From the NCBI GenBank assembly GCA_030386875.1, contig CM059576.1:11933058-11997057 (forward strand): DNA of 64,000 nucleotides, in the 5' to 3' direction. Origin of the DNA: Morinoia aosen. Taxonomy: Eukaryota > Arthropoda > Malacostraca > Amphipoda > Talitridae. This document shows positions 1 through 47,561 of this stretch, one piece after another. Position numbers and translations under genes: made by a program. A model generated the notes under the pieces. It worked only from the letters and a program-made list of their open reading frames with translations, had not been told where the DNA came from and did not search any database. Numbering within the stretch: position 1 is the stretch's first letter; the number at the start of each line of letters is the position of its first letter.

Positions 1-2325
1 TGGCTCTTCTTTGCCACGTTTTATTCGCATTAATCCATGTGTAGTACTGAGGAAAATCACAATAAAGGATACCTCTTGCTAGTGGATCTTCTTGATTCAT
101 CTGGAAGTATGCTGTCAACTTTGTGGCTCTATTTTCTTCTAAAGCTACTTGTGCATGGTCTGGATCATAAACGACGTGCTGTTGATTAGGCAGGTGTATC
201 TGTAAACATTCAACTGCAGGTTGCCTCTCTTGAATAGGAAATTCGAATAATCTCCAGCACGCCTCCGTCGCTCCAATATAGCGGCAATTTTCATAGCGAG
301 TTATGTCATCACGTTCCATAGCGTTAGAGAAACCAATGCGGACACGATCGTCTTCTCTATGCAGAGAAACAGTTGCCTGATCAACAACTTTGTAAATATA
401 TTTGTATAGATATTTTACTGCTTTCACTGAAGCGCACCACTCAATATTGATATGAGCTTCGTATTTTTGCAATAACCATGCGTTGTAGGGAACAACGTTG
501 CGATTATCAATATTAACTGTGCTGTTTCCAACTTGTATAGTAGCTATGAACCTACCTTCTGCAGGACTTCTACGACGATAATTTGGGTAAGAATCGTTTG
601 CAACTGATGTCTGTGAATTGTAGTCTTTGGGATAATTCTTGCTGCATTTGCCATCAATCATGCAGGGTGAACTTGGGTTATCTCTTCCACACGGGCCGTG
701 TGTCATGTATTTTGTAACCAAATTGTATAGATGCGTGGTGTTTGTGTTTTCAGGATCAGGAAGTTCAGCGGAAACAACTTTATCAATTTCTTGCCAAGTA
801 TCATGGTGATTTTCCAAAATAAACAAATAATGACAATGAGGCAATCCTCTTTTCTGAAATTCTATAGTGTTCACATGAGCGATGAGTTTTCCAAGAACTC
901 CAGATTTTATGTCGTATAGCAATTGCTGCTATTTTAGTCTAAACACTCTTGCAGTTATATCAGGCCTATCTGTAGCTGTCTGGCCATTGGAAAGTTCACT
1001 AAAAATTTCAGGCCATTTTGGATTGCATGTAAAAGTCAGGAATAAAGTAGGTTTGACAAATTTTCTAACAATTGCCATGGCATCCTGATAATGCTTAACC
1101 ATATATCGCGGACTTCCAGTAAAAGAAGGTGGTAATATAACCTTGCGGCCGGCTCGATCAGCGTCGCCTGCAAGTATAGCATCTTCTAAGCCATTGTACA
1201 GATCAGATCGTAAAGTTGTTTGATTATCGCGAATGTATTGTAGACGGCATGATTGTACTTTTGCAAACTGATCGACACAATATTGTTGGAATAAACGATT
1301 GCCGAAGAGCAATACGTTCACAGACTGTGCTCGTTTCATGATGCGATAAGAGTAAAATTGTACCAATGAAATTTGACGGGTTCCAGTTGCATTCATAATT
1401 CCAAGATGCCAACCGCCAGTGCCAGAAGGAAAAAAACATGGATACATCATAGGATCATACGATCGATGAGAGTCACTCAATGTTTGCAATCGGTGCTCAG
1501 AATTCACTTCTCTGAAATTTGTAATCACTGATCTTTCAAAATAATTTGGTTCATTATCAACACCATTCGGTATCAAAATTGCAACTTCATTAGAAGTTGG
1601 TAGATTATACCTTCTTGAGTGTTCAGCATCAGGCTTTTTATCAGCATGTAAGGCAATAGATTCATTTGATGGGATGGTACCGGTGTCTATTTGTTCTTGT
1701 ATTGATAAAAAAGACTCCAAATAAGAGTTTCCTGCAGAAACGATTGAAGAATGGATTATTCTGAATATATTTTCATCAAAAATGGGGTTTGCTCTGTTGA
1801 CAGGCATTCGATGAATTCGTTGCCTTATCTGTTCGTCGGGATCGTAGAAGTATGTCTGCAAGCACGAAGGAGAAGTTCCATGAATGTTTCGAGGAGCACC
1901 GAAAAGTCTGTAGACAATTCCATGAATTTTATAATTAGAAATTCCTCGTAGAATCGTAGCATCATTTACTTTCATTGAACACATCGCCATCGCACTGATA
2001 AATCTTCTAATATTGACCGGAAATATTTGGCCTCTAGTGTATTAGCAGTGTAAAGATTAGAGAGCTCATCGGGTAACTCAGGCATATTTGTAATTTTATC
2101 ATACCTGATTTACAGCAAATTCCCAAAATTAGGATTGTTTACCGTCCCTCCTGTTTTTTCTCCCATAAACATAAGAGAATTGCAGTGCCGACATCGTACT
2201 TCCATTAAACCACAACTTTGGCGTTCAACGTTAACAGATATCTGAAGAAAACCATCTATATCACAACTCCTGGCTGTATTGAAATTCCGACGTCGATTTT
2301 ACTGACGTACTCTTCTGTGATGAAC

Positions 2326-17168: not shown

Positions 17169-18376
17169 GGGCACAATCTGGGTCAAATTTGGATAATGGT
17201 AGATTTTTGGTTTATTAACTTATCTTATAGAGAATTTTCTTGCGCATCCAACGGTATAATTTGCTCTCAAGTACGTACATTGGTTCTTCCCCTAGACGGA
17301 GTAGAAGACGTGCAGTAACGTGACTTAGCGCGCCAGTGTATGGGTGATTTCACCTTTCCCCCGCCTAATTACGAATCAGTTTTGGGCGTTCCTCAACGTG
17401 AATAGCAAGAGAGTTCATTCATGGCCTTGCTTGAAATGCTTTAGTACTCAAACGAAACATTCTAACTCTAAGTGTTAAATATGATGATGAAACTGAGTGT
17501 TTGTTTTGAGTCTGGCTGCTCTGAGTCATCAGCTAATTAGCAGTTGTGTAAACACATAATTGCCTCCCGAAGTTTTGAAGGTGCAAGAATGACAAATATA
17601 TCATTAGAAAGGGCTCAAAAAGAGTTACCAAGCAAAAGAGTTGAAAAAGAAAATTTGTTTGCCATTAAGAAAAATAACTTTTTTTAAAAATGGCTGGTGT
17701 TCTGAAATTTTCAGTCATTGTTTTTTGATATGGATCCTTTCCCACAGTTTTGAAGATACGGGAATGGCTAGTCTACCAATCGATAGAGCTTGGAAAAATC
17801 TACATTAGCTGTAAAATTTATTAGAAAAAAGGTCTATTTCAGAAATAATATGAAGAAAAGATGAAAAATTTTAGAAAAATGGCTCTACTGAAAACTTAAA
17901 CTTTTTGATCTTTGAAGAGGCCCTTCTCTCACAGTTTTGAAGGTACAGGAATGGCAAATATACCAATTGATAGCGATTGAAACATCCTATAGAGGCAGTG
18001 GTACAGTTTTTTGAATTTCAAATCATGTTGAAAATTATACGCTAAATAATTTGAAAGAATGGAAAAGTCAGTTTGGGGAAAAAACTCTCATAATTCGAAA
18101 AATCAAATTATCAAAAAATGTTCCCACTGGCTCTCAAGAATAGACAATTAGCTACCTATAAAACATTTTTACAGTTCTGTAACTTCAAAATTGTAGGCGA
18201 TGGACACGTTTCCGCAACATCCCCTTTTTAATTTTTTTTCAATCATATTTTTTATAAATTTACCAAAAAACACATGAGTTCAAAATGAAATGCCGCATCA
18301 TTTGGCACATATTGTGAAAATCTTAGAAAAATCCGTCAAGAACCAACGGACTTTTGGTTTCCTCTGGACCGTGTCC
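17169..18376 (-). mobile_element. X family element, copy 2, inverted
   Basis: The direct repeat TTTA at 17165-17168 and 18377-18380, a variant of the family's TTAA, flanks a 1.2-kb insert. Its ends GGGCAC and GTGTCC are inverted relative to copy 1, and the body matches the reverse complement of 13330-14488. The right unit has an uninterrupted site near 44070-44090. Copies 1 and 2 face each other across 2.7 kb and could form a long hairpin. Confidence 0.75.
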
Positions 18377-18717
18377 TTTATTTTGCATCATTATGCATCA
18401 GTTTTAGGGCTGAATCATAAATTAGAAAGGCTTCTAGAGAATACTAGGTTTAGCTTGAGAAGTCCCTAGTAGTCATGAGGCTACTGTTCATCTAGTTAGG
18501 CTAAGCTAAATGAGAAATATCCTCCAGCTGTTGAATTGTCTCACCTATGAATAGACCTGTGTTTATTTTATGTTTTGTGCTGTACCCACTTATCATCCAT
18601 GGGCTTTCATACCACTTTTTTACTTATGTATTTTCATCCCTCCATTTGTTTTAATACATGATGTAGCTGGTTCAAAAACACTATGTTCCTTGACTACACA
18701 TTTTCTTTAGTTTATAC

Positions 18718-18830
18718 CAGGGTGCAATTTCAGAATTGGAGGACATAAATTAGAAAAAAGTTCAAAAATATTGAAAGGAGTAGTTAAAAAAGTTCACTTT
18801 TCCCTACATTTTAATTAATAAAAAACACTT
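18718..18830 (-). pseudogene. Fragment of tnp2-like transposase gene
   Basis: Read on the minus strand this stretch encodes FELFSNLCPPILKLHPG. That is nearly the same as FELFANLCLPILKLHPG in the transposase frame at 57900-57955. The match stops at CCCTGGT, where the left unit begins. A similar fragment lies at the outer end of the right unit (54478-54620). Confidence 0.5.
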
Positions 18831-19496
18831 AAAATTTTGTTATTATGAATAATTCATTTACTTCAAAGCATTACAAGCCACTAAAATATGCATACTTGAC
18901 ATTAATTTACTGTCATTGGATATTCATGGATAACATTTGTGATTACTAAACAGCAAATGACTTAAGTTTTTGAACTTCTTGATGATTGAATTCAACACAG
19001 TGCTCAAGCCTCTAGAAGTATTCTCAGCAGCATCATTAAATACCCATTTTTCATTTTAATCTAAGATTTTAGTATTTTACTATTAAATACTATTTTTTGA
19101 AATTAAAAATTATAAGACTTGAGTAGAACATATTATTTTCAATCAAATCTTCAGCCTTTTAAAGCTCCTTGCACTGAGTTAAATTTTTAGTTTCGCTCTC
19201 AATTTTTCATAAAAATGATAGAGAGTTCTTGGTACTAGACCTTAAGACAGGAGAGATAGTAATTCTGAACGGAAATGCTGCAGCTCATGGTAGAAAAAAC
19301 ACCATGCAAAACTTTTTGTAAACATCAAGGAGCTCTGCTATGGATAAGTCTGAAAACTTAATTGCACTATCTTTCTAGACTATTTTCATTTTTAGTATGT
19401 GATTTTTTTATTTCTGCCTCGTCTAACTGTTGAGTAGCACCATTAAGTCTTCTTTGTTGATTTATGCTGTGATGCTATTGTTGGCGCAAAAAGATA
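18831..19496. other. AT-rich, no gene seen
   Basis: No coding or repeat structure is recognised between the transposase fragment and the MITE. Confidence 0.5.
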
Positions 19497-19939
19497 GGTA
19501 AATGTCAAGGAGAAGCTGCTAATCGATGTTCGAATTTTTGTTGCAATAAAACACTTTTCTTCTATACACTTTCCGATAGAAATGAGTACTTTTTGAGTAA
19601 TAGAGGTAGATTACTTACCGCAATCTAGTCTTTCCAGAAGGGAAAAATTGTTTTGAGAGGAGACTCCGATAAAATTCGTTTTGACGCGCTCGAATTATCG
19701 CTACGTTAAGTTATATTAAGTTAGTTTACGTTACCTTAACTTGCTTTAGGTTACATTAGGTAAGGTTGGGTATGATTATATCAGTTCAGTTTTGTTACGG
19801 TACGTCACCGCTATAACTCTTTAAATACTCACTTCCCCAAAAAGTGAATGGAATAAAAGTTGTTTATTTCGATGTAATTGCCATGATTTTTGCAACAAAG
19901 TTTTGAAAATCGATTAGTACCTTCTCCTTAACATTTACC
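19497..19939. mobile_element. Foldback MITE related to 5875-6421
   Basis: Inverted repeats of about 150 bp (19497-19640 and 19790-19939) share the GGTAAATG start, the AATCGAT block, the TTTTCTTCTATACACTTT block and the AGCGGTA-type motif with the element at 5875-6421. Flanks show an imperfect 6-bp repeat (AAGATA and AAAATA). It is non-coding. Confidence 0.7.
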
Positions 19940-22537
19940 AAAATATCTCATTACTGAATTATTACAGGTAACATTTTGTTTCGATGTGTACATATGTTAT
20001 CAGCCTGGTTGTACATGAGTATAAGTAATTTCCCAAGTTCCAACTATCTTTACACCAAAACTAAATGAGGAAATATTTCTCTTCTTTTACCTAAGATAGT
20101 CAGTTTGAAACTATTTAACTAGACATGACAGAGTGAAAGAAGAAAGAAAACTCAAATCGGACGGTCACAAATAGTGCTAATCCTTGAATACATCCTCGGA
20201 TTTTCCAGTTTCTAGTACGAGAAACGACATTATGGACTACGCTGTGAAGTTACTAAAATGAAACGAGCACAATATCAGAAACATATAGAGTTAAAATAAA
20301 ATTTCTCAAGCTCTTAGAAGCATATATATGAATTCCACGCATTTTAATTTCATTGTTACTTAATTTTGCACGAGAAATATTGTGTACCCATCATTGTGCA
20401 CAAATATCATCATCGACAATAATACCTTTGATGATTCTACTGTTGGATTCTGACGTTTTCACTTCACTAATATAACATGAACAACACTCATGGTAACACG
20501 AATCGTTCAGAAGCCTAAAATAATATACTTCAATTATCAATAACGTGGAAACAAATTTTCAAGCCCTTTTAGATACGTACAAATCAGTTTTTTTTCTGAA
20601 GGAAAGACAGTTTTTCAAAATTTCCACTGATGAAAACATAATTACCGAGTTCATGAGAAGTGCAGAGCGAATTCCTCCTTCCATGCGCGATTCTTTAAAA
20701 TTGTTTTTAAAGAATCCACCGTCAACTGCGTTCTTGCAGCAATGAACCCACAATTTGGGCAATTAGAATTGCAGAGTTAGAAAGAGAAGATTTTCGATCA
20801 TATAGTACGAAATGCCAGGGGATTGTTGTTATGGAGCTCAGAACTGAAAGCATGGACTGCCAACAGATATATGATTTAAAAAACTTGTATGTGGCGAGTA
20901 GTTTATTTGGCTATCAATGGTCTAACTCAAAACATAGAGAGCTATTTTTAATGATATTTTAAGAAACATTTCTCTCTTAGAACCTGAAAATGGAAATAAC
21001 TGGACTGATTCCTCAATAAGCGCCAACTAGCCTGAATTAGCACTCTCCTGATGAAGAAACTGTTTTATGTACTTTCAAAAAATGGTCAAGTAATACATGA
21101 AGCAGTCTATTACTTAAAAAAACACAAGATAGCATATCTTTAAAATAAAATTACACTGATAAAAACATCCTCAGATACTAATCAGTTTAAATAGTACATA
21201 TGAAGAAAATTTATAGGCTATTTGTATTTCGAAAACGTTTCGAATGAACTACTAAACAATATATTGATATTGCAATGACGTTCGAGGAAAAACTAAGTTA
21301 TGAAAACTTTTTTACTTCCAGGTGTACATTTTCAACATCTGTCCAGTTATAAAACTAATTTTCATGAAAGTATATATAGCATCTAAGCATTTCACAATAA
21401 ATTATGATCTCATTGTCATTATGTATTTCAAATTAAATTGCATTGAATAAAAAACACAACATAATTCTGACAAACTGCTGAGATATTGCGCGCATTTGAT
21501 CGCAAACATTTTACATATGTAGGCGTGTCTATGTTTAACATTCCATTAAGGTATACAAAATTATTTACCGCAACCAATTATCCTAATTCTCATTTACTAG
21601 AGATTTATGTACAATAGTAGTCAATATTTTCTCTGAAGAATATATACTTACAGCACAACTTAGCGCAATGAGATGGCGGTGAAGCATGACGCAATGAGTG
21701 AAGAACAGTCGCCTGCCGCCACCTGAAAGTTAATGTAAAATATTCAATGTACTCAAATTTAGAAGATTAGAAAATTATTTAATTCCTGCAAGTTCTTTTT
21801 AATCGTATTGTTTAATAATTCTGGAAAATATCGAGGTAAATGTAAGTTTTTAAAAAGACAACGAGTGTATGAGCTAAGAAAATAATTTTTTTTATTATTC
21901 TTGAAAAAATGTCGCGATAAAATTTGATAATGGCTGAAAATCTTTGGTAACCAGTACTTCACTATAAATACGTCCTACTGCACTGAAGTCGGTAGCAAAA
22001 AGTAAGTGAAATAGAAAACCTGTAAACCAGTTTGTTCCAGAATAAATTATGAAACAATAGTATAACATGTAAAGTATGATCTGGAGTGGTAATTTTCAGG
22101 AAAGTATGCATAGTTTAGAGACCCGCTCTGAAATTTTGGATCATAAAAGATATCAATATATATCATTCAAAGAAATCTGAGATAACAATTACACACACGT
22201 ATTCATGTCTAAAGCAAATTAGGGTGACAGGAGTAACGAGAGCAGATCTATCAGGAACACGCATTAAACGATAGCTTCTATTCGTGGCTGACGCATGATA
22301 ATTTGTTGTATACTCTACGTTTGAAACTTGAAATTTTTATTTTATCTTGTCACATTTTTGCTGTAATTTCTTTTGACACTCGTAGCTTTAAACTGGGTTT
22401 TGGTGCAACACTAGAGAAATGAGAAAAAATCAGTACTAAGATAACAAGACGATACTTTGTTTCGTAAGCCGAACGCCAGCAATACAAATACATACAAAAG
22501 ACCTAAATGCTTGCAGATTAAAAATACGCAGGAAAAA
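19940..22537. other. AT-rich stretch with one short open frame
   Basis: The only candidate is a 66-codon plus-strand frame at 20545-20745 (contains FLKERQFFKISTDENIITEF and RIPPSMRDSLKLFLKNPP). It ends at a stop and then continues poorly. It looks protein-like in composition, but I recognise no family. Nothing else is supported. Confidence 0.35.
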
Positions 22538-22842
22538 GCGCATAGACATCAATAGCACATAGACTACAACGGGCCATAGTCTACAACAGCGCATAGACTA
22601 CCACAGCACATAGACAACAACAGCACATAGACAACAACAGCACATAGACAAAAACAGCACATAGACTACAACAGCACATAGACTACAACAGCATATCAAC
22701 TACAACAGCACATCGACTACAACAGCACATAGACAACAACGGCACATAAAAAACCACAGCACATAGACTACAAAGGCACATAGCCTACAAAAGCACATAG
22801 ACTACAACAGCACGTAGACAACAACAGCACATAGTCTACAAA
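22538..22842. repeat. 17-bp minisatellite, about 18 copies
   Basis: Tandem copies of a 17-bp unit close to CACATAGACTACAACAG run for about 300 bp. The variable positions are mostly CTA/CAA after AGA. The array lies just beyond the 3' end of the transposase-PHD-OTU locus and has no spacers, so it is not CRISPR-like. Confidence 0.88.
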
Positions 22843-23024
22843 AACTCAAAGAACTAAGCGGTTGAATGACTCAGTACAATGCCAAGAAATATCTTTAAAG
22901 AATCAGAAAGATTTCCGTTAGCCAATTGAAGCGGTGCATTATTATCTACTTTACCGGAAGCTTCAGAAAAGAGTAGTACCTCATGTAAAATGCTGCAACC
23001 ACCTAACGCCTGGTATCCAGTCCA

Positions 23025-23682
23025 GTATTATTCAATGATTAATGCAGCATCTTCTCTGCTCCGAAGAAAAGTTTTGTCAACTCCTTTATATTGCACCATT
23101 GTTGACGGCCGTGTAGCTTTTGCGTTATTTATTATTGCGTCATAGTGATTACAAGTTTCGTTTTGGGAGTCAAAGTAGTAGAGCAAAGTGACAAACCTCG
23201 AATCAAGGGAATTTTCACCATATTTGTTAGTTAAAAACCATCTGTATTCTCCGTCATTATTTCTGCGTAGTAGAAATACATCTTTCTGGTATATTACAGA
23301 AAAAAAAGAATTCAATGGAACCTCCATACTTGCTGTATCTCACAGTTGGCGTGTCATGAGAAAGTGCAGGAGGCATCATCCTTCTTGCGTGGGCGACTAG
23401 AGCTTCTCGAGTTGTTTTGTTTCGAACGTTTTCCCGTAAAATATCACTGAAGAACATGACTGTTGAATAAATGAGATACGCATCGGGGTTAGCAGATTTT
23501 TCAAGCATTGCGTTTCCTTCTTTCCAATAGTCCCTCGTCCATTTTTCATCATTTGATTTTTCGTTGGCAAGTCGAAGCATTTTCTGGCAAATGATACCTC
23601 GCATTTCGTCATTGCGACATTGGTCTTTCAATTCGATTTCCGCCATTGCTCTAAATACGCAATTTCCATCCCCTATTATTGG
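23025..23682 (-). pseudogene. OTU-family cysteine protease domain, frameshifted
   Basis: Continuing the PHD frame, the sequence shows IVPIIGDGNCVFRAMAEIEL, the OTU active-site block with aspartate and cysteine in GDGNC. Further on come the expected YGGSIE/VPLNSFFSVIY strand and, at the C end, NETCNHYDAI with the catalytic histidine in the NHYD motif. OTU enzymes cleave ubiquitin chains. The reading frame changes near 23320: the two frames overlap across a short GTTCCATTGAA stretch, which suggests loss of one copy of a short direct repeat. All three catalytic positions survive. Apart from the frame change and the stop in the PHD, the domain looks intact in length (about 185 residues). Confidence 0.78.
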
Positions 23683-23784
23683 GACAATCTGGCGAGCTTC
23701 AGCTTCCATGTGCTTTTGAAGGCTTTCAAGGTAATTTTCTTTGATATATCTTTTAGTAGAATGTGAAGAAGATTCAGCGTCAAT

Positions 23785-24003
23785 TTTTCTACACTTGAAA
23801 CACAGCCATTTACCTCGTGGCACCTTCTTCAAGTCGACACAATTTAAATGAAACCAATCGCCTCCTTTCACTCCCTCATTCTTCAGTCGTTGTTAAAATG
23901 AAATACAATTTTCTCCATTGTCGCACCCAATCCAACGACTCTCCCTGATACCTGTTTGGCATTCTCTTCCAATAGAGACACGACACGTACAATACACCTC
24001 AAG
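23785..24003 (-). pseudogene. PHD finger in frame after the transposase
   Basis: The transposase C-terminal frame continues directly into an ING-like PHD finger: VYCTC, then WIGCDNGENC, then DWFHLNC, then GKWLCFKC. This gives the Cys4-His-Cys3 order, with the tryptophan before FH and the GKW typical of chromatin-reading PHD fingers. One TAA at 23893-23895 interrupts the loop between the second cysteine pair and WFH. The same frame resumes immediately, so a single polypeptide is implied. The loop there is longer than in ING proteins. The likely role is binding modified histone tails, inferred from the family. Confidence 0.75.
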
Positions 24004-27000
24004 GTCTTCATCAGGATTAACAAATTGTTTAAATTGTTTAAAAACTCCAGGCTCATCTTCAATAGTGTCAGCATAAGCATTTTCTGACGATTCTGAGGCA
24101 CACAATATCCTCTTAGGCTTTCTTGATTCATCGACCAGGTTTTGCTGAGTTACGTCGATGTTTTCAATCATTTTTTGAGAAAATAGCACAGGTGCTTGAA
24201 CTGACGAAATTTTAGTAGTGTTGGAAATGCTTTCATTACCAGCGGGAATTTTTGATGCTGAAACAAAATCGCAAAATTTGGTCCTTTTTACTTTCTTTGG
24301 ACAAGGTTTTTTAGATTTTATTTTTCTTTTGCTTGAGGCTATTGGTTGAGATTTACTCTTAGATGATCGCAGCTTAGATATGAGATTCCGTACAGTTGAG
24401 CTTTGATGCGTGGCTGGTTTGCCTTTCATTAATGCTTCTTCATGCTCTCGCAAAAATATCTCTCGTGGTCGTTTACTGTCGATGATTGCCATGTTTGAGT
24501 TAAACCGTAAGAAAACTTCAAAATTTACGTTGTCCAGTTTCTCGTCTTTGTAAGTATTGTACTGATATTTCGACTCGAATCGATCGCGCACAGTATTTGA
24601 AACATGAGACATAGCTCTTTCTGTGCCTGATTGGCTAGGTTTCATCAACTGAATGATTTCAAGAGTTCGATAAATGTTCAAATCTTTCACTTGCATTGCG
24701 TAGTTTTCATTCTCGTTTAGATATCGGCTAAAAACCTCCACGTAGTCCGTTTCTTCCTCGCAAGGGTCCCGAAGATCGACGAGCTTGTTATTGGCTACCG
24801 GCTTCCAGTGCTCGCGAAAGTGATCCAAAAATGTGCGAAATCCATTTTCAACAGTCACAGATAACTTTCTGACAGTTTTGGGAACATGGCTCAAATGAAA
24901 TATTAACGAGATCCAGGAGGCTTCGGTAGGCATCGAGACGGGCTTCATCGGTGATCTCAGTCGTCGACGCGTGAAGAGACAGGAATGTTGTAGCGAATAA
25001 TATCGCCTCCGGAGCCTGTAGAAAGTCACTCTTCCGTTCAAGGATAGATTCAATCCAACTTTGATTTTCTGCAAGAACCTGTTCAGTATCCGGAAGCAAT
25101 GAAGCTGATTCAGACCTGGTTTTTAGTAATTTATTTTTGATCTCCTTCACGTTAATTCCAGTCCAATGCGTAACTGAACGGAACTGAACGTTCCCTCCAT
25201 TAGAAGCTCCATTCCCTCCATTCCCTCCATTAGTCAAAGGTTCCCTCCATTAGAAGCTTTTCAACTTCTTCTGGTGGATGCTGAAGTTGTGCAAATTGAG
25301 TGTCGAAAAGCGAGAGCAAGCTCATGAATTCAAAAGGTCCAAACGAAGCACTTTGAGCTTTTTTCTCCAAATCAGATACACAGTGATACACGCGGGAAAT
25401 GAGTAAAACTCTGGCCAAGAAGCTTTCTTGCGAAACAATTCTTAAAATGCCGTGGGCCTTCTCACCCAGATTAGGATAGTACATGAGAGATGAAAGAGCT
25501 TCGCACAACACTTTATCATTGGAAAAAAGAGCATCTAGATGGAGATGTAGGTATTCCGCGAATCTAGTAGCACATTAGTTTGGTATTATGCGGAAAACGC
25601 TTACTTGAACGATATTTACATATTTGTGAATTTCATTTTTAACTACTGCGTGGTCATTGACGAGAGAAGCAATAGACCTACAGGATTCCAAAGTCTCGCT
25701 GACCCACGTTGGCATTGCTTGAGTCATTAAATTCTCAATTTTATGGCAAAAATCTGGAAGACCGTGCACTTTTCCGAAGTCATTGTCTGCTCTCAGCCTT
25801 TCGATCATTCCAGATTTTTGCCAACGTAAACAGCAGCTGAGTCGGTAGCTACGAAGGCAACAGCCTTGAGCGGCAAAAATTGTTCTAACGTGTGTTTCAA
25901 ATGGGATGCTGTTGAGCCTGCATCACCATTCCTTATCATCGAAACACCAAGCAAGGCTTCGCGTGGTAAGCCACTCGTATCAATATATGTGGCTACTACA
26001 GCCTGACGCGTTACATCTTTCGGTGCAGTTCCTTTGTCAGCGCTGATGGTAAAACGGCGGCATTGTTTAGTCTTTAGGTGTTCAGCACAAAAGAAATTTT
26101 TCATTTGCTCAGAACAAGAAAGATAATTTGCTTGAAGCATTTTCTGCATCGAGTTATGACTATGATGACGATTTCCGAGCGGATTAGGTACCCCCTTCAG
26201 GTGTGATGAGAGACATCAAAGCGCATACTTGGGGATATACACGGTAAGGCATGTTGTTATTTACCATGAACATTCCAGCTACAGACATATTTTCTGTTGC
26301 TTGATGTCTTTGCGCGTTGGTAGGTCGGCCATGCTTTAGTTGTGACCTGTCGTCATGCTTAGAAAAGTCGAGCGCTTTCAAATGTTGAGCTGAAGATAAA
26401 TGGTGTTTCATTGCCTGTGCCTTGCGTTTTTTAGACGTGAAGATCATACCTTGCGTCCATGATTCATCTCTCTTCTTTCTTCCATGGGTCCGAATCCCGT
26501 ACTGTGTACATCACATACAGAAAACTTTTGTCTCATTCTTCCTCGAATCAAATTGATACGCGAAAGAGGAATCTAAAGATGAGCTTACGCAACCTTGTTC
26601 CTCCTCTGTTGGGCAAGAATCGGGTAATAGTTCTTTTATTTTCGCATTACAGCAACAATTTACGTCGGCGTGCTTACATTCCTCAGTAATTTTGTTCAGA
26701 TTATGATCGAAATATTTTTTCAAAATTGATATTTCATTACAACTCTTGCATGCAGGTTTCGCCAGCAGAAGCTGAGTTGTTTTAACTGCTTTGGTATTAC
26801 AATCATTCAAATCATTTTTCGATTTTTTTTTCGACTGTATTCTCTTCAGTGCAGCTTGATACAAATCCGTCTGACACTGATATAATATTTTCCGTTTGTG
26901 AAATTTCGAACTCTCTTCCACAGCGAGAAGTGATGGGTTCATCGGTATCAGGTAAAGTTAATTTCTTAGCAACAGCTGAAGGCGTAGTAAAAGTTTTACT

Positions 27001-27557
27001 GGTAGACACATTTTCAATCAGTGCAGCATTCGCCTCGAGACTGGGGATCTTGAGAATTTCGGCAGGAACTTCTAAACTATCATGCTGCACCACGCCCTTC
27101 GATTTTGCGACAACCTGTTCTCCAAGCTTATCCAAATTTGTCTTTCTCTGTTGAGCTGCCGTCGTAATCCTAGCTTCCACTGTTTCTTTCTCCTCATGAT
27201 GTTGAGCGGCAATATGTTCCTCAGACTGCGAGGGAACAGCTTCCTTACATTCAGACTGCAGGGTTACATCTGGTGAGAGGTGCTTTGCGACGCATTCTTG
27301 CTCTACGCCGGCAGTACTCTTTGTTTTTTCGTTGCGTTTTAAGTAAGATGCAAAATAGGTGGGATGTTCTTTCTTTACATGCCGCAGTATATTTGTTGTA
27401 CTGCTTTTAGCAAAGGAAACAGTTTTTTCCCGTAAGTACAGAACTTGCAATCTGCTGAAAAATTATTCCCAGAACTGTGGCGCAAATTTTTGAATGCAAA
27501 TTTGATGATTGTGGATTCGGAAATTTTTTCCAATAAATGAAGATGATTTCCATCCAT
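23960..27557 (-). pseudogene. hAT-like transposase, frameshifted
   Basis: This is a DNA transposase of the hAT type. A BED-like zinc finger spans a frame break near 27430 (CKFC, then NILRHVKKEH). A low-complexity linker follows (26.5-27.3 kb). The core is in two frames, 26447-26184 (MSVAGMFMVNNNMPYRVYP) and 26149-25805, and holds ISADKGTAP and FVATDSAAVYVGK, which align with the first and second catalytic aspartates of hAT enzymes. It runs on through 25808-25575, 25511-25230 and 25237-24848. The last block (25074 onward) has KPSQSGTERAMSHVSNTVRDR and NVNFEVFLRFNSN, the region with the catalytic glutamate and the C-terminal dimerisation segment. Adjacent blocks overlap or abut with single-base frame changes. 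A basic stretch (KSKKPCPKKVKRTK), possibly a nuclear signal, follows before the PHD finger. Confidence 0.72.
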
Positions 27558-27614
27558 TTTGGTGCTCGGTCAACACCTGCAATTATTGAATCATCTGAAA
27601 AAGTAGAATACAAA

Positions 27615-30600
27615 AATTTGACTGAAGTTGTTCATGGCTTTTCATTTCATAAGTCTAATTAGAAACAATCCTACCCCGATATTTTGACAATGGGTAGTTT
27701 TGAAGCATGTTTGGACAGTATAAATAAAATTTCCGTTGAGAGATATAGATGTCTGATTTTCGTGTGAATCATTTTGAGACGTTCTGCTCTTGAAATGACT
27801 CAAGTTGAAGAAATTAAACCTATCTTACTTAACTATTCAGATACTATTCAATAATAAGCATTATACTTGACTCGCAGCAGTGCCATAAGAAGCAATTGAA
27901 GCGTACACAATATATGTGTTGCACTTGATTACAGGAACATTTTGCGTCGCGGGCACACTCGACATATCAACAAATTGTACAGCATGGTTAGTCATATATC
28001 TGTAAAACACGGGAAAAGCTCGGGAACGGATAATCATTCCACCGATGAAAAATCAAGTCCTCTAGACATGAAATACCGTATCTCTAAATATTTTGCCACT
28101 GTTTGCTTATACATGTATAATACATTTCTATGTATACATACATAATATGCAGATTGCAGAAACACTAAAATTATATTCTGTACAATTCACTTAAACTGTC
28201 ATTGTTATGATTTGTTTTAATACAGCTTCTACACTCAACAGAAGTAATCTATTATTTTTGAGTTGTGTAAGTTTGAGAAAATAAGAGTATCTTAAAACAA
28301 TGAAAGACCAGCTAACTTGTAATGAACGTTCGTCAACTCAGAAAACTCACGTTTTCTCACAGGCCCTGATGAATTGCTTCCGGATGAATTGCTCGGAAAT
28401 CCTCAGCGTCCTCTTCCGAGTGGTCAAAACAGCAAAACCTGAAAATATAGGCGTTTAGCACTAAAAAATAATATGCAATAAAGTTCCTGACAAATAATAT
28501 GTTACAACTCGCAAGAGCTTGTCAAGTCCCGGAAGAAGAAATTTATTTTTGAATCTGGCTTCTATCTTAATTCTTCTGCCATGTTAATTTCATCGCAGGA
28601 AAGTGAAATTGCAAGAAAAACATGGAAAAAATAATATGTTTGGAGTTCGTCTGAAGCACTCCTGCGAAAACGATGCACGCTTAACTACTAAGACCGACCC
28701 CGGCCCGACGTATGTGACATTTTTGTCGAGTCATATATTTTCAACTCGCCTTTCACGCAATAATATTTCATTCAAATCCGGATAAATATTGCACAGAAAT
28801 TGAAACCATCATGCAAAACCTCATTTCTACCTTGTAAGTTGCAGGGGCAATGAAACAATAGACACTTATTTCCCCTCTGGTGACGTAGGAACGCCGAGCA
28901 GAACACGAGCATCTATATATATATATAGAGCGAGTGCGATTCTAAAAATTAGGTTCACAACTTGTTGAAGATTTTGTAATTAATCACGTGCAATCAATCT
29001 CAACATCAACAATTGTTGCATATTGTGAAAAAATAGCTTTGAATCATTGCTAAATAATGAATAAAGGAGGTAAAAAATAAACTATAATCTACGAAGAACT
29101 CACTGAATCAAAATAAAAATTAGTAAGAACGCTTGAAGTCACACCTACACCTCTCGACTTTCTATTACTGACTGACACGATTTAGCATTTGCAATTTTGC
29201 AATGACCGGGCAATGGCAATGACAGTGACGCAGTATGAGTTGATACTTTATGCCCCGCTTTATGCTCATCGAAGTATTGCTCACTCAATGTCTCTCCAAA
29301 CGTAGAAACTTTTAAGTCGTACAAAATGCCTGAAGGACACAGACTGAAGAAACACAAAAATGTAGTTTCTTTTACAAATATGTAAAATAAAGTCATCTAA
29401 AGATAATATAATTTATCGTCAATTTTTTTGTCTCGGTTAGCCGTTTCTGTGTTGAGAGTGATTTACGTTCAAAGTTATGTGTGAGAGTAAAATTATTTCC
29501 AATTGACAAGCAGTCGAACGTCTTGCAGATAATAATATGAAGGGAATACATTTCTATCTCAAGAATGAGCAGGTTGTTCATGATTTGGGAAATAATGACC
29601 ACTACGCCTTACAAATAGATATGAATCAGGATCGATGAGCACTTTTTCATTTCAGCGGAATACAAAAAAATTGCACTAGGGAGGTTAGTTCGGACAGAAC
29701 GCACTCTACAAATATTTCTTTATAATGCAAAGTTAATGGATAACATAATGAAAGTAATGAATGTTGGTTATTTTTTAATACGCTCAAGACCGAACTGGCA
29801 TGGTTATTACTTTCGTAATATTCATATGAAAATGAATCTATTGGATTTTTTCCTTGCTTGTAGGTATGCAGTGACCTATGAAAATATTGGCGCAGATCTG
29901 CTCTCAGATAATCATCTATTATATTTCTATTCAATTCTTATTTGCACCTTGAGTGTGTTCTTCTTATGTTGTATTAATTTTCAGGGGAAATACACGAGGT
30001 ACCGAGCTCAAGGCTCATATACTGTATTTTTATTTTTATATATTAAACTTTCTAGCTTGTCTTTTTCATTTCTGCTGTTATTTTTCAACACACGCAATTT
30101 TTTTTCATTTATACTTTGTTTCATGAACTTAATTACGGTTGCAATATGCAGGGAACCGGAACACACTTTTTGCATATCTTTTTCGTTCCCTTGTTTGTTA
30201 ATATAAAAATTCCTTCCACCTTCGGAAAAAAATTTGTTGGGGTTAGGGGATATGCACTTAACTTAAATCAATCATTCTAACAATTTTATATTAAATTCTT
30301 GAAAAGTAAAATGTGAACAGAAATGTAAATGGATCAAAGTGAACAGACGAAAAATATTTGAATAAAACTAATGTTTTTATGAATTGGTAAGGTATAACTT
30401 CACTCTGTATGTGTTTAAATTTTCGTTATAGATTGTGGAATTTATGATGCAGATTTAGTATTGAGGAATTAATCGCTTCCCAATAATTTTGATAGAGGTA
30501 AATTTCATTATCCGTAATTGCTTGTTAATTTTTATGTAACATAATTCTCAAATGCCGAGTATTCTTTACCGAAATCAATCCAAATCTGCAAGTTATTATA

Positions 30601-32079
30601 TGAGTTGCTCCGAAATGATGAGCTATATTTATAGCTAAAATTAAAGCCTGACTCAAATTACACCTCGTAATCTAATTTCGTTGTGCATTGCGGCAAGAGG
30701 GCTGAAAATTTATTTTAGAAATGTGAAAATGAAATAATCGGGATGTGAACGAGGTTTGACCATCAAATTATTCATAAAATATCTACTGCTATAAAGGAAA
30801 AATTGATTTATGCTATTTTTAAATTTTTATTAGTTACGATGATTGTGATAGGAAAAATATTTTATAACCTGTGTAATACTATCAGAATATATTCAAGATT
30901 TCCATGTTTATATACGCAGGACAAATTAATGAAAAATTCAATTTTTATCTTTTGCCTGCCACTATTACCTTAAGAGCGCATTTCAAAAAATATCTGCGCA
31001 TGAAGAGACAATAGATAATTGAGATAGTGTCGCTTTTGTCGCTGTTTCATGTTTGAATGAATTGAACAAACTTAGAAAAGAAAAATTGAAGATAATGTGT
31101 ATCATATATTGCGGATACAGTCATTGCGAGCTCATCACTTAATTAAACATAAATGTTATTAAAGTGATATTATTTAATGTGTTTATCACATTAATTAAAA
31201 TTTCTGCGTGCTTTGTCGAACATTTCGAATGTCGATTGCCATAATTTTTGACGAAACATGCATACCGTCAGTGAGGTTTTCATCGTCAAAGAGGTTTTTA
31301 ATAATGATTCTTTTTATGAATGAATAACGTCAGCTGAAAAACTTTTCTTCTTCCCAACATCATTTATAGGACCAGAGTTCATCTAAATCAAATTGAAAAT
31401 ACTTATTTGAAATAATATTGCTTATCGTTTCAAGAACATTCACGGTGGAAATTATTTTAAACAGCCTTTGAATGTGAAAGTCGAAATCTTCCATTTTCGT
31501 AACATACAAATATCATGTTAGGCAATGTATCAACTGGATTAACTTAACCGAAGTATGCCAAATCGAATATTGGATGCTTTAGATAATTGTGATTCATTAT
31601 TTTCCGGGTATGATATATGCAGTTATTCCATCAAACGTCATCGAGAAATATTCTTTAAAATCTCGTCTAGGCAGTTGTATCAGATATCATATAACTACTG
31701 AATTTATAATCAATAATAATCAATTTTGCGGGTATCTGCGAGATGCATTTAATGTTTGCATACTTGTTGTCTTGGTGTACTGGATAATCAAAAATTGTTT
31801 CCACTATTTTATTCACGAACATGAACAAAGATAATGTTACATTTTTATTCCTAATACTTGATATTTAAGTTTTAAAGTCTCCGAATTGGTCGACATAAAT
31901 TTTATTTTTGCAACTTTCTGACATCATTAAATTATGAAAAAAATAAAAAGTTCTATGAAAAACCAAAATATTATGTGAATATGTATCTACTCCAAAAGAA
32001 AATCAAAATTTCACAATATTTTACTATTTCTCAGCGTGTTGCATGTTCTACCACGCATACAGCCTGCCTAGTAGCTGCG
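27615..32079. other. AT-rich gene desert
   Basis: No recognisable protein or RNA gene. There is a short TA repeat at about 28915-28935. The longest open stretch (29736-30206) has no coding character. Regulatory function cannot be judged. Confidence 0.5.
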
Positions 32080-32330
32080 GCGCGGGAGTAACTTTCCGGA
32101 GCCACTCTTCTCCTAAGTTCATTTTTTGGTGAACGAGTCGAATTTGTGCCTACAACGAGACCGAATAGCGATTCATTCTCGTAGGAATAACACAAAGTCA
32201 TTTTTAACTGTCTCGTTCAAAGAAAACAATAATAAATAACTAATACTCTGGAGGGTTTTTTGACCAAAAAAATTACCTTTTCGTAAAGCTGAAAGTGTTT
32301 TCTATCTAATGGAGTAATTAAAGGGCCATT
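32080..32330 (+). repeat. Dispersed repeat P, copy 1
   Basis: The segment around ATTACCTTTTCGTAAAGCTGAAAG and the preceding GACCGAG-type block match the reverse complement of about 54930-55180. Both copies are diverged and non-coding. Confidence 0.5.
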
Positions 32331-34229
32331 TAAAACAAGATAAAGGGTATAAATTATCTTTTAAGATAAAGAGTGATCTTCAGTCTGAACTTGCGTTCGT
32401 TCGCTGCAGCCCGGAGCCTCGCTGCACTACACTCCAACAGCACTCGCTTTTCAGTACGCTATCAATAGTAGCCTGAGGAGGGTTGTAACGCTTCTGTCGA
32501 TCCATCCAGCTTAAGTTCTTTCTTCCTCCTGTAAAAGAAACAAAGATGCATCTAATAGCTCATAATAGTTGTTTTGATTAGTTGTATAGTGAAAAATTTT
32601 AAAAACTGATTTTTAGATAATATTAGTACTAAACTAAGGGGCCAATTTCGATTTCAAGGTACTTCAAAATTATTCGACGAAATAGTTCACAAAATTTCGC
32701 CGGGCTGCTACATCTAGTTCCAATTTTCCATTGTGTCCAGGCATAAAAAAGTTCCTTGAAATTCTTCCCTGTACGGTGGAGTTCCTACAACTTGATATAA
32801 TAAATTCAACACATTGATTTTCAGAAAATTCTTAATAAAAACAGCCTTATTTCTAATTTAACACTTTGACTGCGACTCCTAAATATTAGGTTCAATGCCA
32901 AACTCAAATTTAAAGTCAATTGTGGTAAATTATTTTGAAAATACCAAACATGAACTGGTTCGTGCCTTCATTTAGCACAGATTAAGTCTTTGTGAGAATT
33001 TAATTTGCGACTACTGGTCAGTCAGCAGCGTTATGGAAATTACCTCCGTGTACCACCGATGCCGCACGTTTCAGTCAAAGTGTTAAGGAGAAACTGCAAC
33101 ACTTATTATCATTTGTAGAACATTAGTTAAATTTACGGAGAACATAGCCATAAAAATGCATTTCCTTAGCTAAAAATTAGAAAACACACAGAGATGTCAA
33201 ATATTATCCTCGTAAAACGACAAGGAAATATTTTTACGTTGACACAGTAACAGTTCGACGGCTTACATAGTTCATTTCCGAAGAAGTTGTTGCATGTTAA
33301 ATTTTGAATAATGTTAAGCCTAAACGGCTCAAATTAAAAGACGAATCGTATGAAGTAAGCATTAGTACCGTTAGGGGTTGAATGCTTGATTGACACGAAT
33401 TAAATAAAAATGTATTCCCTCGGATTTCTTCACCTTCACACCAGGACTGGAAGCCTATCAATACTACTAAATAAAGCCTTTGCGCATTCTCCTCTTACAT
33501 TCACACAAGAGCTCAGGCTGCCACAGCGATGGATGATTTTGATGAAGGTATAATGTCTGGAAATAAATTATTTTGCCTCGAATACGAAAGTCGATGTTTT
33601 AAAAATTTGAAACTTATTTTTCCTGCATACATGTTAATAAAAACGTACCTACTAAATAGAGAAACGTGATTTACCACACAACAAAATTTGGTCTTCACGT
33701 TTATAACAAAGTAATGCTGGCACAAACGATTCCCAATCGTACCATACGAGCAAGAGCGGCCGTCGCACAAGGTTAACATCAACATTTCACCATCAAAAAG
33801 AACTGAAGAAAAATGAAAGTTGGAAACATAAAACTCAATACATTGGATTATACAGACCTCAATGTAAAATTACTGATGTCTATTTACAAATACCTTTTAA
33901 AATAAAAGGTATTCTAATGCCTAAAATAAAGGTTCAAATCAACTACAATCTGTGCAATAAAAGTGTTTGCTTTCTGTTTGGATAAACGAAAATCTACAAA
34001 ACACTTGACCGAATAGACCAAAACACCGTTCTCAATGATATTCAAAAAGTGGAATATAGATGCTATAAAAAATACGAAAACAGCACAACGTGCATGTCTA
34101 ATTAAAGATATACGCAAAAATCCAATGAAGTTGTCATTCTATTGAAAAATATATGAAAAAATTCATACATATGTAGTCTTCGTACTAAGGAAATTAAAGT
34201 AGAATTCATTATTCTAGTCCAAAATTTTC
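32331..34229. other. AT-rich, no gene seen
   Basis: Nothing coding is recognised. A GC-richer patch at 32390-32500 might be an old promoter or exon, but no open frame supports it. Confidence 0.45.
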
Positions 34230-35721: not shown

Positions 35722-37572
35722 TCATAAATGACACTTGGACAGCTGACCTTGACCATGTTTGCTGGCTAGGTGTTGTTTAACACGTTGCTTCCGTGCAGAG
35801 GAATAGTCACATAATTCACACATAAACAGCTGACCTTCACCATGTTTGCTAGCTAAGTGTTGTTTAACACTTACCTTGTGTGCAGAGGAATAGTCACATA
35901 ATTCACACTTGAACAGCTGACCTTCACCATGTTTACCGGCTAAGTGTCGTTCAATATTTCCCTTCAGTGCAGAGGTATAGTCACAATACTTACACATTGA
36001 CATCTCACCTTCACCATGTTTGCTAGCTCGGTGTAGTTCAACAGCCGTCTTTAGAGCAGAGGAATAGTCACATAATTCACACTTGAACAGCTGGCTTTTA
36101 GCATGTTTTCCGGCTAAGTGTCGTTTAACATTTGTTTGACTTGGAGAAGAATAGTCACATAATTCACACTTGAACAGCTGCCCTTTACCATGTTTTCTAG
36201 CTCGGTGTACTTTGATATTACTCTTTTGAGCAGAGGAATAGTCACATAATTCACACTTGAACAGCCGCCCTGCACCATGTTTACTAGCTAAGTGTTGTTT
36301 AACACTTCCCTTCTCTGCGGAGGAATAGTCGCATAATTCACATCTGAACAGCTGACCTTTTCCATGTTTGTTGCCTAGGTGTCGTTTAAGAAGATACTTA
36401 CGAGCTGAGAAATAGTCACATAATTCACATATGAACAGCTCACCTTCACCATGTTTGCTAGCTCGGTGTAGTTCAACAGCCCTCTTTAGAGCAGAGGAAT
36501 AGTCACATAATTCACACTTGAACAGCTGGCTTTTAGCATGTTTTCCGGCTAAGTGTCGTTTAACATTTGTTTGACTTGGAGAAGAATAGTCACCTAATTC
36601 ACACTTGAACAGCTGCCCTTTACCATGTTTTCTAGCTCGGTGTACTTTGATATTACTCTTTTGAGCAGAGGAATAGTCACATAATTCACATATGAACAGC
36701 TGACCTTTCCCATGTTTGCTTGCTAGGTGTTGTTTAACGTTCTTCTTAACTGTAGAGAAATATTCACATAATTCACATCTGAACAATTGACCTTTACCAT
36801 CACTGTAAACTTGGTGCATTTCATGCTCGTTTTTACGAGCAGAGGCATAGTCCTTCAAAATACGCATATCAAGCTGACCTTGCCTATCTTTGCTTATTTG
36901 AGGAATTTCGCGCTTACCAGACAAACACTGTTTCAAGTTTGCCTCACTAGCTGAAGAATTTTCACACACCTCACACTTGGACACCTTCCTGTTGTCTAAT
37001 GCACCTTTTTCAGGCGCTTCTGAACAGGACTTCATGACTATGATAGAGCCACAGACTTCACATTCAAGCTCTTCCTGACTATGTCTTTCAGGTCGCTGTA
37101 CCCCCATCATTTTCACACCAGAATATTGGTAACGCCTTAACAGACCTTTCCATTGGTTTTCATTATCATGCTGCTCTCTTACGTGTCGTTTGGAAGCCCT
37201 CTTGTTCTTAGTGAAGTAAGCACACAACTCACACTTGTAACATCCCAAATTATGCCTGGCACTGAGGTGCAATCTCATAAAATCCTTCTTTCCAGTGGAG
37301 TAATCACAATGTGCACACAGTAAGGGCCGTGACGTAAGTGTGTCCGGAAGAGCGGCCTCAACACCATTGCCGCTACCCGACACATTTGATGAGAGCGAGG
37401 CAGCGCTCTTTTAAGATGCTCCAGCTGGTCCCTGATGAACAGCACATGTGTTGCACGCACCAGAGCTTTCTTCTCTCACCTCGTCTTTTGCTTCTGCGGG
37501 TCCTGACGGTGTTTCAGTGCAGTCTACTTCTCTCTTGAAAGTAACTGCATGAGAACCTGCATTTGAACTGGC
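35722..37572 (-). CDS. C2H2 zinc-finger protein, main exon
   Basis: The exon encodes an array of about 14 C2H2 zinc fingers (core CELCDYSSxxKxxVKxHLxxKH) joined by GxGQLF-type linkers. It should act as a nuclear DNA-binding protein. Two N-terminal fingers and two degenerate ones precede the regular array. One finger has CELG instead of CELC and should not bind zinc. The exon starts after a TTTCCAG acceptor at 37573-37579. Its first part, 37572-37414, encodes an acidic region (VTFKREV, a likely SUMO site). A TAA at 37411-37413 then interrupts the same frame, after which the finger frame continues to 35722. Either this is a nonsense mutation or a short intron removes it. The upstream exon at 39427-39548 joins in phase. 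The last finger is cut short after SKCHL. Confidence 0.8.
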
Positions 37573-45929: not shown

Positions 45930-47561
45930 ATGAAAACAAAAATCTTTTCTCTATGACGGACAATTCGGTTTTCGTTCTAAGAAATCAACGACACGAGCTG
46001 TATTAAATCATTTACAGTACCTTTACTCTAATATAGATGAAGGAAAGCTTGTTTTCTCCGTTTTTCTTGACTTTCGAAAAGCATTCGACTGTGTGGACCA
46101 TAAGATGTTACTCTCGAAACTACACTGTTATGGCATTCGAGGAATTGCCCATGATTGGTTCAAATCATACCTAACAAATCGGAAGCAATACGCTGTCGTT
46201 GACGACGCAAAATCGGACCCACAGACAATTAGCCATGGAGTTCCACAAGGGTCTGTCCTAGGGCCTCTCCTATTTCTGATATTTATGAATGATATTATCA
46301 AATCAACAACATTTTTCAAATTCATACTTTTTGCCGATGACAGCACGCTTTCTACGGTCCTTCCAAGCCAAAATCCCGCTATGATTGCGGAGAGCATAAA
46401 TAATGAACTCCATAAGGTTTCATTATGGCTTAAAGCTAATAAAATAAGCCTCAACATCGAAAAAACAAAGTATATTACATTCTCATACAAGAAAAGCATA
46501 TCTCTCCCACACATAAAAATTGGCGAAGGTGAAATCGAAGAAACCAACTCATGCAAGTTTCTGGGCATCATAATAGATAAACATATGACCTTTAAAGAGC
46601 ACATCGCTAATATTAGTTCTAAATTATCGAAATCCATCGGAATCCTAAATAAAGTTAAAAATTACCTGCCTGAAACAGCTTTACAAATGCTCTACCGAAC
46701 GCTCATTTCACCATACTTGCAGTACGGAATAGAAGCATGGCACGGAAGTGATAAAAATAAAACCAATATAATTTTTACTCTGCAAAAAAGAGCAATCAGA
46801 GCGGTAAAGAATCTAGAATATAATGCTCACACAAATGATTCATTTAAAAATTTACAATTACTTAAACTTCCAGATCTCTATAAAATCTCCATTTGTAATT
46901 TCATTTACAAAACATTAAGAAATGATGGAGACAATAGCCTGAAACTATTATTAAGTGCGCAAACTGGTCATCACGACCATTTAACCCGAAATAGAAGTAA
47001 ATTCATGCTTCCTTATTATTCAAAGGCCCGGTCGCAACACAGTATCCTCTTCGTTGGAACTAAAACTTGGAACTCAATACCTGCGGAGATCCGTGATAGC
47101 AATTCTTACAAGTTATTCAAAAGAAATCTCGAGACTCACTTCCTATCGGAATATTAGTCATGTAAGATCACCAAGTCAAATCTTGTCTCCAACATGACTG
47201 TTTCCAATAATGAAATTTGCCATGGGTAATATGTAATTCGCCTTCAGTCTGCTGTTAAATCTTTTATCGAATGTACTGTTAAATATAGTCCACATAACCT
47301 ATATTGTAAAATGAAATATCTGATATTGATTGAATTATCTCACTGATCAGTCTAATGTGAAACTAGGTTAAGTGATTTAGGTTAAACATTAATGTACACC
47401 TTAGAATAATGTTGATGGTAGGATGCCCCAAAAGTCGCTGAACTTATTCGGGCCCACAGGTAGCTATATTCAAACTTGTCCATTGTACTAGACTTAAGAA
47501 ACATTCTACCTCTGTATCTGCTGTGGTAAATAAATTGTTTAAATTGTTTAAATTGTTTAAA
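45930..47561 (+). mobile_element. 5'-truncated CR1/Jockey-type LINE
   Basis: A LINE copy beginning inside the reverse transcriptase and ending in a short tandem tail, AAATTGTTT repeated about three times (47530-47561). Such microsatellite tails are typical of CR1-group LINEs. No flanking duplication was identified. The 5' limit is set by the start of coding similarity and may be a few bases off. Confidence 0.75.
45940..47157 (+). CDS. LINE reverse transcriptase, C-terminal part
   Basis: An intact frame of about 405 codons with the standard non-LTR reverse transcriptase blocks: YDGQFGFRSKKST, FLDFRKAFDCVDHKML, GVPQGSVLGPLLFLIFMNDI, the catalytic FADD box (LFADDSTLS), CKFLGIIIDKHMTFKEHI in the thumb region, and a C-terminal tail with HGSDKNKTNIIFTLQKRAIR and FVGTKTWNSIPAEIRDSNS as found in CR1 and Jockey elements. 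The endonuclease and the first ORF are missing through 5' truncation. An internal methionine at 46093 begins the longest ATG frame, but similarity starts upstream, so there is no real start. The absence of stops suggests a fairly young insertion. Confidence 0.85.
   Translation, partial: KSFLYDGQFGFRSKKSTTRAVLNHLQYLYSNIDEGKLVFSVFLDFRKAFDCVDHKMLLSKLHCYGIRGIAHDWFKSYLTNRKQYAVVDDAKSDPQTISHGVPQGSVLGPLLFLIFMNDIIKSTTFFKFILFADDSTLSTVLPSQNPAMIAESINNELHKVSLWLKANKISLNIEKTKYITFSYKKSISLPHIKIGEGEIEETNSCKFLGIIIDKHMTFKEHIANISSKLSKSIGILNKVKNYLPETALQMLYRTLISPYLQYGIEAWHGSDKNKTNIIFTLQKRAIRAVKNLEYNAHTNDSFKNLQLLKLPDLYKISICNFIYKTLRNDGDNSLKLLLSAQTGHHDHLTRNRSKFMLPYYSKARSQHSILFVGTKTWNSIPAEIRDSNSYKLFKRNLETHFLSEY

Follow-up and report, generated by a model that had tools for sequence, protein, structure and literature searches.

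A probable hAT-type transposon of 14 kb from the amphipod Morinoia aosen, its transposase frame extended by an ING-like PHD finger and an OTU-like protease domain

The window analysed here is a stretch of 64,000 nucleotides from contig CM059576.1 of the talitrid amphipod Morinoia aosen. On its minus strand, a frame resembling the C-terminal region of a hAT transposase runs into an ING-like PHD finger and on to the motifs of an OTU protease domain. The question raised by this locus is whether these parts belong to one protein of one mobile element, or have merely come to lie next to each other. Our answer, which we consider likely, is that they do belong together: the window carries a damaged copy of a cut-and-paste transposon of hAT type, large at 14 kb, in which one transposase frame continues through an ING-like PHD finger into an OTU-like cysteine protease domain.

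The reading frame is complete in another copy of the element, C4, which has one stop-free stretch of 1,502 codons (1,498 residues from the first methionine). This frame encodes, in order, a BED-type finger, a hAT-type core, the ING-like PHD finger and the OTU-like domain, so that the fusion of transposase, PHD and OTU proposed in the first-pass annotation of the window is real. In the window copy, the GTERAMS block and the first half of the PHD finger lie in the frame from 25122 to 23893, which is closed by a TAA; the same frame then resumes from 23892 to 23257 with the second half of the finger (WFHLNC...WLCFKC), followed by GDGNC. The NHYD motif lies in a different frame (23339–23028), past a break at a poly-T run, and there are further frame breaks upstream of the 25122–23893 stretch. 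The first-pass annotation had correctly placed GTERAMS, PHD finger and GDGNC in one minus-strand frame apart from the TAA, and both OTU boxes are indeed present, but the TAA is not the only interruption and the two boxes do not share a frame in the window copy.

The limits of the element were obtained by comparing copies. A DNA search with 23025–25074 gave 21 matches in the 1.99-Gb genome (29 contigs), and the surroundings of eleven loci were oriented and compared. C4 is 14,083 bp long, is flanked by exact 8-bp duplications and is homologous to the window copy from end to end (32771–18716) at 96% identity; other copies match long stretches of the window copy. Homology among the copies breaks off at CAGGG on one side and at CCCTG on the other, and we therefore define the window element, a damaged minus-strand copy of a low-copy DNA transposon, as the 14,054 bp from 18718 to 32771. 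The same ends, CAGGG...CCCTG, are common to copies at different sites. As inverted repeats, which in hATs are short (10–25 bp), they are perfect over CAGGG and, judged by eye, alike at 12 of the first 15 positions in the window copy.

Both ends could be read at nine loci, with those at C6, C9, C15, C21d, C21e and C12 paired by position only, and 8-bp duplications were seen at four of the nine. They are exact at C4 (GTGAGATG on both sides), C21b (GCTGCCAG) and C15 (AACCTACA), and C21d has GTGAGATG plus one extra base. At a tenth locus, the old copy on C9 (old C9), the flanks match by eye at 6 of 8 positions. Hence the earlier proposal of shared terminal repeats and 8-bp duplications enclosing all the domains holds for the ends, and for the duplications at these four loci, with none at the window copy itself. 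The same 8-bp target, GTGAGATG, occurs in different flanks at C21d (L038, L039) and C4 (L009/L010), a hint of target preference or of a common origin of the two sites.

Searches with the 5′ 400 bp and the 3′ 469 bp gave 476 and 599 candidates, respectively, and 40 of each were scored. A large family (L033–L035, L055) has mainly the ends of the element, with ∼81% identity over the 5′ 950 bp and ∼76% over the 3′ 205 bp. At three compared loci the first 950 bp are alike at ∼81% and only short patches follow. Target-site duplications were not found for this family, in stretches that each reach one of the two ends. Since only the ends are held in common at this level, they seem to be part of a much larger set, whose members are probably non-autonomous partners.

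We then asked whether the tail belongs to the element. The core was found at thirteen loci, namely the window copy, C4, C6, C9, C15, C21b to C21e, C1a, C1b and two old copies, old C9 and old C20. The first-pass annotation had allowed that the fusion could be accidental, with related copies ending before the PHD finger or the PHD–OTU part standing alone as a host gene. Instead, PHD and/or OTU sequence is present at 12 of the 13 loci, old C20 being the exception, as it skips from about residue 918 almost to the 3′ end, and the old subfamily has the same domain order. A genome-wide search with PHD and OTU only (E up to 10; all 37 candidates scored) returned the element's own family and six weak rows, five of which touch the second half of the PHD finger (best E 0.007), and no free-standing PHD–OTU gene. 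We reject chance juxtaposition with a host gene, because the tail lies within ends that are common to different sites and no lone PHD–OTU gene was found. The evidence supports the tail as a genuine part of the transposon.

The dN/dS test suggested for the tail gave the following values. Between C4 and old C9, with gap and stop codons dropped, dN/dS is 0.35 for the N-terminal part, 0.38 for the hAT core, 0.34 for the PHD finger, 0.37 for the OTU-like domain and 0.36 for PHD and OTU together (245 of 328 codons used). The linker gives 2.37, and is a weak control, with few changes and values from 0.27 to 3.24 in other pairs. The tail has dN 0.107 and dS 0.293, the core 0.046 and 0.121. Over PHD and OTU, 37 of 152 synonymous and 58 of 583 nonsynonymous sites have changed (Fisher test, p 1e-5; OTU p 7e-4, PHD p 0.02, linker p 0.13), and the OTU-like domain has similar ratios before and after the poly-T run, 0.40 (87 codons) and 0.39 (83 codons). 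Against old C20, C4 gives 0.52 for the N-terminal part and 0.56 for the core. Six young copies compared with C4 have overall ratios of 0.33–0.57, and when the distinct changes of ten young copies are pooled the ratio is 0.52–0.72 in the domains and 1.11 in the linker, as expected if most changes arose after insertion. The test of the tail depends on one old copy, a thin basis, and old C9 has itself decayed, which will pull the ratios towards 1. Over one older divergence, the tail has apparently been kept by selection.

The N-terminal part of C4 matches zf-BED at residues 32–66 with 19.9 bits, just under the Pfam cut-off of 20.6, and zf-C17orf113 at residues 333–396 with 17.6 bits (cut-off 29.5); for the second of these zinc finger families, PF25431, the search yielded five rows, all below the cut-off, one of them this transposon family. 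A genome-wide search with the core (E-values to 10, with 70 of the 75 candidates scored) returned its own family and two outsiders, with E-values of 0.11 and 0.26, a third weak row being a fragment of old C9. Both outsiders are hATs: L056 has Dimer_Tnp_hAT over the cut-off together with DUF4371, and L057 has DUF4371, the DUF4371 scores being below the cut-off in both. Pairwise alignment of the core with these two gives E-values of 2e-7 and 4e-8, obtained after they had been chosen as the two best outsiders in the genome. The DETT of L057 aligns with the first Asp of the core (507) and the TDNAS of L056 with the second (572), the C-H of both aligns with 604–605, and the TRW of L056 aligns with TRF at 664–666. 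By eye, GTERAMS also resembles what we take to be the hAT C-terminal motif. Against PDB the core gave a single meaningless match (E 2.5), and the NCBIfam search gave chance-level matches only. Judged by the alignments, the core is homologous to hATs.

For the PHD finger, two models match the second half in C4 (residues ∼1222–1245), at 23.8 bits (cut-off 27) and 19.2 bits (cut-off 24). The top PDB matches are ING proteins, 1wes_A with the whole protein (5.9e-5) and Yng1 with the window piece (8.1e-6), and they too are mostly limited to the second half. All eight C4-H-C3 zinc ligands, the first four assigned by eye, are present in the C4 copy and at 10 of the 12 loci that carry the finger; they are partly lost in C21c. 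The aromatic residues Tyr1177 and Trp1223, which we presume to be those concerned with H3K4me3 binding, are present in C4.

In the last domain of C4, GDGNC lies at residues 1284–1288 and NHYD at 1459–1462, a Cys box followed by a His box at the usual OTU spacing, as we understand the motif to be defined. A pair of boxes at OTU-like spacing did not arise once when the 1,498-residue protein was shuffled 20,000 times, although this is only a rough guide because the motif pattern was chosen after seeing the sequence. The best matches, to otubain (C65), OTU and OTUD1, all fall on the Cys box. Among the young copies that cover the boxes, 8 of 9 retain the Asp and Cys of the Cys box and all 10 retain the His and Asp of the His box. 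The stretch with the putative catalytic cysteine is missing from C1a, C1b and old C9 (L025–L027, L031) through two different deletions, one of 205 bp and one of 212 bp.

A search with the OTU family gave 1,842 first-look candidates in this genome, and all 150 that were scored exceeded the cut-off, none of them being the hAT–PHD–OTU element. Two of these hits (L053:2–3265 on C24, L054 on C3) represent a non-LTR retrotransposon (LINE) in which the first frame closes with an OTU domain and an endonuclease frame comes next. Capture of the OTU-like domain from this abundant OTU-bearing LINE is unsupported, the single match to the LINE domain being short (29 residues, E 0.011).

Several observations weigh against the reading of a hAT-type transposon with a functional PHD–OTU tail. 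All copies are from one genome, and C4 is the only fully open one among the 12 loci examined. No 8-bp duplication was found at five of the nine loci with both ends read, these being the window copy, C6, C9, C21e and C12, where the two ends (end sequences only) are 5.7 kb apart. At several loci, with ends 18 to 99 kb from each other, position was the sole criterion for pairing them, so that some of the missing duplications may be due to false pairs; recombination between copies is another possible reason. No Pfam hAT model matches the core, and hATC (PF05699) in particular was not detected; the C-terminal piece of the core does not align with the hATC piece of the hAT comparator, and the catalytic Glu of the core was not located. 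The BED ligands are gone in both old copies, and one is gone in C21c. The lack of a Pfam hAT match, the 14-kb size and a PHD finger together with a minisatellite, as in Rehavkus (PMC6446971), would suit an element of another superfamily with 8- or 9-bp duplications, such as Rehavkus/MULE. However, the duplications are of 8 bp and not 9, the ends are short CAGGG ends and not repeats of 26–400 bp, and the two best outsiders of the core are hATs that align with it at D, D, C-H and TR[FW]; we regard membership of such a superfamily as very improbable.

The remaining objections concern the tail. Nine of 11 young copies lose the frame at the poly-T run that precedes the His box, as judged by eye; C4 and C21d keep it. 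No other observation speaks as strongly against the OTU-like domain being needed in cis, and the amplified branch may have transposed although its own OTU was not intact. Old C9 is in frame across the run, so the in-frame state is probably ancestral, and the run may be a weak point for slippage or assembly. Transposases act in trans, and one intact copy could therefore serve the frame-broken ones. The Cys box is absent at 3 of the 12 tail-carrying loci through deletion of about 70 residues (1253–1322 in C1a and C1b, 1244–1311 in old C9), so that the selection test does not cover it; in C21e there is a stop at its Cys, and in old C9 the PHD ligands are partly lost. Most copies being broken, the frame breaks within the OTU part, the lost Cys boxes and the near-neutral private changes of the young copies would all fit a captured host gene fragment, carried as a passenger without a role in transposition. 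This is nevertheless improbable given that tail and core have similar dN/dS ratios over the older divergence, that both halves of the OTU-like domain are constrained, that the old subfamily has the same order and that a source PHD–OTU gene was not found in the genome. The frame breaks and lost Cys boxes also bear on whether, with the PHD finger real, the last domain is an inactive OTU-like fold that binds ubiquitin or another protein without cleavage. Its scores are under the Pfam cut-offs (last 243 residues of C4: Peptidase_C65 13.8 bits against 24.3, E 0.042; OTU 13.1 against 23.3, E 0.14), and against PDB the same residues match OTUD1 first, at E 0.077, with two unrelated chains next at 0.096 and 0.18. 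The retention of the box residues in the young copies argues the other way, and overall we consider an inactive fold rather unlikely.

We thus favour a hAT-type transposon whose transposase includes the tail. In hATs generally, a BED finger acts on the element ends and the transposase carries out excision and insertion. By homology, the BED finger of this element would bind its ends, and the core would excise the element and insert it with an 8-bp stagger. To judge from domain type and selection, the PHD finger probably anchors the complex on the tails of histone H3 (H3K4me3, by ING analogy), and the OTU-like domain probably trims ubiquitin either from the transposase or from chromatin or repair proteins close by; the complex would then not be degraded before insertion is complete. 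This points to an element that draws on the chromatin and ubiquitin chemistry of its host for movement or survival. A fuller version, which we put forward tentatively and at somewhat less than even odds, is that end-binder, recombinase, histone-mark reader and deubiquitinase are combined in one chain, which binds chromatin methylated at H3K4 and removes ubiquitin at such sites or from itself, and that this hAT has converged independently with Ginger1 and Helentrons on host ubiquitin control.

The features of the element are collected in Table 1. The minisatellite between the OTU end and the 3′ terminus is also present in C4. Outside the transposase no clear second gene was seen, the longest other frame in C4 being 161 residues; Rfam gave no match in 18000–33500, and no relatives were found in viral contigs.

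Table 1. Positions, in window coordinates, of the transposon and its parts
Feature	Position	Strand	Basis
Whole transposon copy, CAGGG...CCCTG	18718..32771	-	Limits of homology common to copies, sharp ends; without matching 8-bp duplication
5′ terminal inverted repeat, CAGGG, imperfect beyond	32754..32771	-	End comparison
BED-type zinc finger region, limits approximate	27361..27465	-	Pfam zf-BED on C4; frame broken here in window copy
Broken transposase reading frame (open in C4)	23028..27557	-	Frame translation, comparison with C4
hAT-type core (D, D, C-H, TR[FW], GTERAMS positions), limits approximate	24378..26250	-	Alignments; frame broken in window copy
GTERAMS block	24607..24627	-	Frame translation
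ING-like PHD finger, all eight zinc ligand positions	23791..23994	-	PDB/Pfam matches (second half), ligand alignment
TAA inside PHD finger, window copy	23893..23895	-	Frame translation
OTU-like domain, frame break between the two motif boxes in window copy	23028..23757	-	Pfam/PDB matches, motif boxes
GDGNC box, putative catalytic Cys	23659..23673	-	Frame translation, motif alignment
NHYD box, putative catalytic His, other frame in window copy	23139..23150	-	Frame translation, motif alignment
17-bp minisatellite, ~18 copies, between OTU end and 3′ terminus	22537..22841	-	Repeat analysis
3′ terminal inverted repeat, ends CCCTG	18718..18735	-	End comparison

Elsewhere in the window, 2–2041 (minus strand) encodes the N-terminal region of a Helitron replication-helicase (Helitron_like_N, 146 and 34 bits in two frames), and 35722–37410 (minus) is an open frame of 562 codons rich in C2H2 zinc fingers. 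Two retroelements are represented by reverse transcriptase frames at 45934–47157 (plus) and 62784–63347 (minus), with RVT_1 scores of 97 and 74 bits, and the latter looks Gypsy-like by eye.

Compared with the hAT superfamily, the element is alike in its 8-bp duplications (at four of nine loci), CAGGG ends, putative BED-type finger and a core that aligns at D, D, C-H and TR[FW]. It is unlike in its size, 14 kb against the 2.5–5 kb given for hATs, along with their typical duplications, in PMC3942097; in its protein of 1,498 residues, against ∼640 for two hATs named there; and in the extra PHD and OTU-like tail. The first-pass annotation had supposed this architecture to be new among hATs. No hAT with PHD and OTU was found among the literature matches listed, whose coverage left out Repbase reports and most subscription journals, but such tails are known on other transposases. 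Ginger1 transposases have a C-terminal OTU or, in Ginger1-9_HM, Ulp1 with PHD, and the table rows listed from PMC2836005 include none that combines OTU with PHD. In contrast to our element, which has no integrase match in Pfam and has duplications of 8 bp, Ginger1 transposons combine an integrase core of Gypsy-like type with duplications of CCGG/CCGT (PMC2836005). Rehavkus, of the MULE outgroup, shares with the element a PHD finger in the transposase and a minisatellite ahead of the 3′ repeat, and differs in its 9-bp duplications, inverted repeats of 26–400 bp and MULE-type core; the word ‘OTU’ is absent from the main text of PMC6446971. Helentrons are likewise mobile elements with an OTU-like cysteine protease, the domains described being OTU or VTD deubiquitinase-like (PMC4067079, PMC9741609), but they are rolling-circle Rep/Helicase elements.

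Guesses at the role of such domains on transposons, in transposition or in escape from degradation, have been offered by other authors, and PMC9741609 (2022) describes the catalytic activity of transposon OTU domains as untested. The finger itself is like ING PHD fingers in its eight ligand positions and the pattern WFH..C......GKW.C..C, and unlike them, by eye and against the spacing that we take to be that of ING, in the longer loops of its first half. OTU or Ulp1 proteases and PHD fingers recur on unrelated transposons: Ginger1, MULE/Rehavkus and Helentrons (PMC2836005, PMC6446971, PMC4067079). A hAT with PHD and OTU in one frame, apparently under selection, adds to these a superfamily for which excision assays are well established, and in which the role of such a tail can be tested.

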